The position numbers were made by a program, and so were the translations under genes. A stretch of DNA of 64,000 bases from assembly GCA_016213205.1 (NCBI GenBank), contig JACRAZ010000107.1, positions 62,001 to 126,000 of the forward strand, in the 5' to 3' direction. This DNA comes from Burkholderiales bacterium. GTDB lineage: Bacteria; Pseudomonadota; Gammaproteobacteria; Burkholderiales; Burkholderiaceae_C. This document shows positions 3,702 to 6,343 of the stretch, one piece after another. The stretch's first letter is position 1, and every line of letters begins with the position of its first letter. The notes beneath the pieces were generated by a model, which saw nothing but the letters and a program-made list of their open reading frames with translations, did not search any database and had not been told where the DNA came from.

Positions 3702-6343
<2,642 letters not shown>

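Follow-up and report, generated by a model that had tools for sequence, protein, structure and literature searches.

Amber codons inside genes that are needed at full length are known from systems with suppressor tRNAs, such as the supE and supF types of E. coli, and phage code 15 reads TAG as Gln. Gyrase is essential, and the gyrA gene described here likewise carries an amber codon (TAG, codon 372) in a gene whose product is needed at full length. In contrast to the suppressor-tRNA systems, however, no amber-reading tRNA was seen, RF1 has no change of its own, only one gene in the sample is affected and TAG is an ordinary stop. With canonical bacterial GyrA the gene shares sequence, length, Tyr122, the QRRGGRGK box and evolutionary constraint, the difference being the TAG, which the canonical gene lacks.

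Base miscalls during assembly also create internal stops, and platform, coverage and assembler all matter for such miscalls, according to Cooley and Wright (2024, PMC11017572). The spurious pseudogenes treated in that work resemble the present case in having an internal stop, an otherwise intact and constrained gene, a draft assembly and no counterpart in close relatives. They were, however, proven by reassembly from reads, whereas the TAG in gyrA is known from the consensus and the sample around it holds no excess of stops.

The interrupted gyrA gene

The window, i.e. the whole stretch of 64,000 bases that was analysed, corresponds to positions 62001-126000 of contig C87 (151,157 bases) in the draft genome of a Burkholderiales bacterium. 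Its gyrA gene is divided as follows:

3702-6347, + strand: gyrA (whole gene), a single frame throughout apart from the TAG at 4815-4817
3702..4814, + strand: codons 1-371 of gyrA, the opening portion of the breakage-reunion domain including the catalytic Tyr122, aligning with residues 1-371 of solved GyrA
4815..4817, + strand: in-frame TAG, gyrA codon 372, Lys or Arg in relatives
4818..6347, + strand: remainder of gyrA (end of the breakage-reunion domain, QRRGGRGK box, C-terminal domain and natural stop), on which purifying selection persists
4836..4838, + strand: first in-frame GTG downstream of the TAG, 18 bases past the stop

The in-frame amber codon reported in a preliminary description of this DNA is present in the sequence, and its flanks are collinear and in frame as stated there. 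Residues 1-371 of the upstream piece match residues 1-371 of the solved GyrA 3nuh_A (a 525-residue chain), the match of the downstream piece begins at residue 380 of a full-length solved GyrA chain, and both parts together are collinear with solved GyrA across both domains. The same alignments contain Tyr122 and QRRGGRGK, which we take from general knowledge to be the catalytic residue and the GyrA box. The uninterrupted reading frame expected of GyrA is broken at codon 372. As this position falls inside the breakage-reunion domain, judged from the solved 525-residue chain, the 371-residue product would not be expected to work.

A split gyrase A, in which the 371-residue polypeptide and a restarted C-terminal part form an active enzyme, would be consistent with the conservation of both parts, and the GTG shortly beyond the stop offers an in-frame start. 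But the break lies within the breakage-reunion domain of the solved chain, neither of the new ends shows adaptation, and no congener has such a split. A restart site, which the preliminary description had already stated to be lacking, is not evident: by eye, the 20 bases before the GTG contain no AGGAGG-like run. This is a weak point, because the 25 bases before the gene's own ATG contain none either. Even so, a two-piece enzyme formed in this way appears extremely improbable.

The aligned codon encodes Lys (91) or Arg (9) in 100 of 101 relative loci, and the remaining locus has a gap adjoining a Lys-Arg pair. The alignment started from 107 loci (27 from the genome search and 80 of 557 confirmed relatives), of which 103 aligned, two of them being the gene itself; the four that failed to align are ParC loci, and the 101 contain duplicates between collections as well as two ParC loci (L025, L027). 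A gyrA match was obtained in 19 of 20 congeners (one partial), while the twentieth gave a ParC-type match only. The gyrA open frames reported for these congeners show no mid-gene stop at the site. A TGA flagged inside gyrA of the congeners G020 and G001 was rejected, being the natural gene end. In the wider family (200 genomes), one of the best 150 PF00521 matches listed (a total counted by eye) has an internal stop, namely the present gyrA, and none of the other 149 does. No interrupted gyrA was found among the titles and abstract openings of the papers listed, by which no absence from print is claimed.

Decay after the TAG, which the preliminary description had denied, is indeed not seen. 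At sites where 18 congeners agree in their amino acid, the gene deviates at 1 of 302 upstream and at 0 of 343 downstream of the TAG (the 18 congeners themselves, left out one at a time, give 0 to 17 over the whole gene), and it carries few private changes. Against five relatives, the ratio of nonsynonymous to synonymous codons is 0.20-0.30 in the part upstream of the TAG and 0.26-0.34 in the part downstream. These invariant sites and ratios indicate that the downstream half has been translated up to the present or until very recently, and with no decay downstream the TAG is either extremely recent or not real. The missing decay fits a base miscall; a very recent mutation would look identical. 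In addition, the TAG forms part of a CTAG tetramer, which is avoided about five-fold in the sample of this genome described below (68 seen, 366 expected), a context that argues slightly for a site not yet exposed to selection.

TAG as a terminator and the search for other internal stops

The sample from this genome comprised 461,884 bases (C87, C101 and parts of three other contigs; about 8%) and was compared with 520,000 bases of G001. Filtering the frames by coding composition and third-position change gave 197 gene frames with 71,269 codons for comparison with the congener. TAG terminates 32 of the 189 scored genes (one further gene ran off an edge), and the G001 counterparts of these 32 genes end in TGA in 20 cases and in TAG in 12. 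Within the window, 12 genes of the strict set end in TAG. The preliminary description had counted at least 14, a figure that was not reproduced, although the point made with it holds. Because TAG acts as a terminator here, a general reassignment is excluded within the sample. The idea that TAG has been reassigned to a sense codon throughout the genome would account for a TAG standing in frame within a conserved gene, but it has to contend with the many genes that TAG ends, with its exchange for TGA between species, with the presence of RF1, with the lack of any amber tRNA among those seen, and with a single accepted internal TAG in 71,269 codons. It can be given practically no probability, in line with the earlier opinion that a global reassignment of amber is unlikely.

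The TAG of gyrA was the only internal stop accepted within genes, and its neighbourhood is 93% and 97% identical to G001 over 30 residues on either side. The strict set reported 22 stops for this genome, of which eight, besides that in gyrA, are flanked on either side by an identity of 50% or more. Five of the eight (C34 34405, C87 2135, C87 97653, C101 25063 and C76 69805) were judged to lie upstream of the true start or at joins between a shadow frame and a gene, and three (C101 21918, C76 21713 and C76 37998) lie within 8 residues of the query end and were assumed to be natural ends. The other 13, in which identity falls below 50% on one side or both, were for the most part simply assumed to be misalignments of starts or ends. 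Many frames from the first, looser screens were also rejected, most of those examined being antisense or shadow frames, recognised by codon-position composition and overlapping open frames, or lying upstream of true starts. Four frameshift rows in this genome were judged, from open frames and composition, to be extensions into shadow frames.

In the reverse control, with frames of this genome against G001, 11 apparent stops were flagged in 208 genes and 72,157 codons. For two of them the identity reaches 50% or more on either flank (0.6/0.5 and 0.57/0.7), and none has flanks like those in gyrA. The looser screen gave 15 rows in the forward direction, against 14 rows of both kinds, as flagged, in its reverse control. 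Internal stops elsewhere in the assembly are not raised in number, none being accepted in the 461,884-base sample, and a single miscall does not require such a rise. In the sampled stretches the assembly is therefore not visibly error-rich, with no other internal stop or frameshift accepted.

Gyrase copies, tRNAs and RF1

A second intact gyrA, which would have removed the puzzle raised in the preliminary description, was not found in searches by PF00521, protein and DNA. The genome contains two PF00521 genes, the interrupted gyrA and one other on contig C34 that is without internal stop and in our reading of ParC type. A protein search of the genome with the downstream piece revealed no second gyrA, and neither did a DNA search with 451 bases around the site, which gave four matches: the gene itself (100%), the gene on C34 (71%) and two short stretches (49 and 25 bases). 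As the completeness of the assembly is estimated at 94.16%, the absence of a second gyrA is not proven by these searches.

With one gyrA found and gyrase being essential, a real TAG should be lethal unless it is suppressed. This bears on the possibility that the codon is a real and very recent nonsense allele in some or all of the sampled cells, either as a deleterious polymorphism of a mixed population or complemented by sequence that was not assembled. For a mutation so young the missing decay is equally expected, the sampled part of the assembly is clean apart from this codon, and the estimated completeness leaves room for a second copy. On the other hand, a lethal variant should not dominate the consensus, and no second copy of this established essential gene came to light. 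We consider such an allele unlikely, if still worth keeping in mind.

No CTA anticodon occurs in any of the 38 tRNA matches in the genome. All of them were checked, including two that ARAGORN passed over, whose Rfam alignments were inspected by eye and show no CTA. A search pattern that joins a CTA anticodon loop to a downstream T-arm has 16 hits (compared with 229 when the pattern is read as a control), none of which ARAGORN recognised as a CTA tRNA. The amber suppressor tRNA with a CUA anticodon that the preliminary description had proposed to look for is thus not among the 38 matches and 16 pattern hits, in a tRNA search that was not exhaustive, since a Gly-TCC tRNA in L056 was missed. RF1 (contig C76), in which changes had likewise been envisaged, has an open frame and no feature peculiar to this genome. 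Its recognition tripeptide P-E-T was considered as an oddity and rejected, as G001 and G020 carry P-E-T too. Positive evidence for amber decoding was not found.

Amber suppression or readthrough, in which full-length GyrA is produced through leaky termination or a suppressor tRNA that escaped detection, would agree with a downstream part that is conserved as if translated, and with an incomplete tRNA set a suppressor may have escaped notice. It sits poorly, however, with the lack of CTA among the matches and pattern hits, with an RF1 that looks normal for its clade, with the regular use of TAG as a terminator and with the lack of any further accepted amber-interrupted gene in the sample. In addition, the 60 bases 3' of the codon differ at only 0 to 5 places in 8 congeners, so that no new element is seen there; these are the 8 of 18 congeners in which a crude seed search matched the site. 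Suppression therefore seems highly improbable. The preliminary description, which had left error, mutation and suppression side by side, listed the right options, but the last of them has now become unlikely. If it were true, an essential gene relying on amber decoding in a proteobacterium with the standard code would be striking.

Assembly and the origin of the TAG

The draft has a size of 6.02 Mb in 109 contigs and an estimated completeness of 94.16%. On its contig the TAG is located at 66,815 of 151,157, far from the contig ends, and contigs of the close congeners G001 and G020 run parallel to it. No 16S match was obtained in the draft, a weak result, as scores cover 26 of 114 candidates and 5 of 14 controls went undetected in the same search. 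Among the tRNAs found (in the non-exhaustive search) those for Cys, Ile-GAT, Ala-TGC and Leu-CAG/TAG/TAA are absent. Judging from these marks, the missing 16S match and the missing tRNAs, and from the contig number and completeness, the draft is probably metagenome-derived.

With no second gyrA, suppressor tRNA, RF1 peculiarity or other amber-interrupted gene having been found, two readings remain, an artefact and a nonsense mutation of very recent date. The tested evidence fits both, and neither of them is a new mechanism. As gyrase is essential and neither a second copy nor a suppressor was seen, an error explains the codon with the fewest assumptions, and the TAG is probably a single-base error of the consensus or the assembly; a wrong base rather than a real, very recent mutation is most likely. 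The organism would then carry an ordinary intact gyrA with nothing special at codon 372. What speaks most against a simple error is that the assembly is otherwise clean in the sample and the site far from the contig ends, since an error at precisely this codon is then less expected; the lack of such a stop in the other family PF00521 matches listed also speaks against it. That the TAG is instead real and fixed, with a working gyrase obtained through an unassembled suppressor tRNA, strong readthrough or a two-piece GyrA, is hardly to be expected. Where a draft genome shows a lone internal stop in an essential and otherwise constrained gene, it is wiser to verify the base than to assume biology.

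Several minor observations were made alongside. The tripeptide P-x-T of RF1 varies within one genus, with PAT in 8, PET in 3 (this genome, G001 and G020), PQT in 3 and PTT in 1 of 15 RF1 genes (L058, L060, L062, L065, L068, L070-L073, L077-L080, L082 and L084) among 30 loci, and this variation might serve the study of release-factor specificity. A low-scoring Arg-TCT-like tRNA copy with an enlarged variable part (L175, G000:C55 about 9258-9339) adjoins a normal tRNA-Arg. A cluster of weaker tRNA matches lies on contig C28 (L174/L056, G000:C28 about 15.9-17.8 kb); possibly, and this is a guess, these weaker matches are remnants at a mobile-element site. The tetramer CTAG, under-represented about five-fold in the 461,884-base sample, occurs 14 times within the window. 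Two RNA features were also located in the window:

914-1288, - strand: tmRNA gene with the tag ANDTSYALAA; the Rfam match ends at 1288, and ARAGORN extends it to 1398
34376-34432, + strand: COG3860 RNA motif (RF02940), matched with 64.2 bits (gathering score 42.5)
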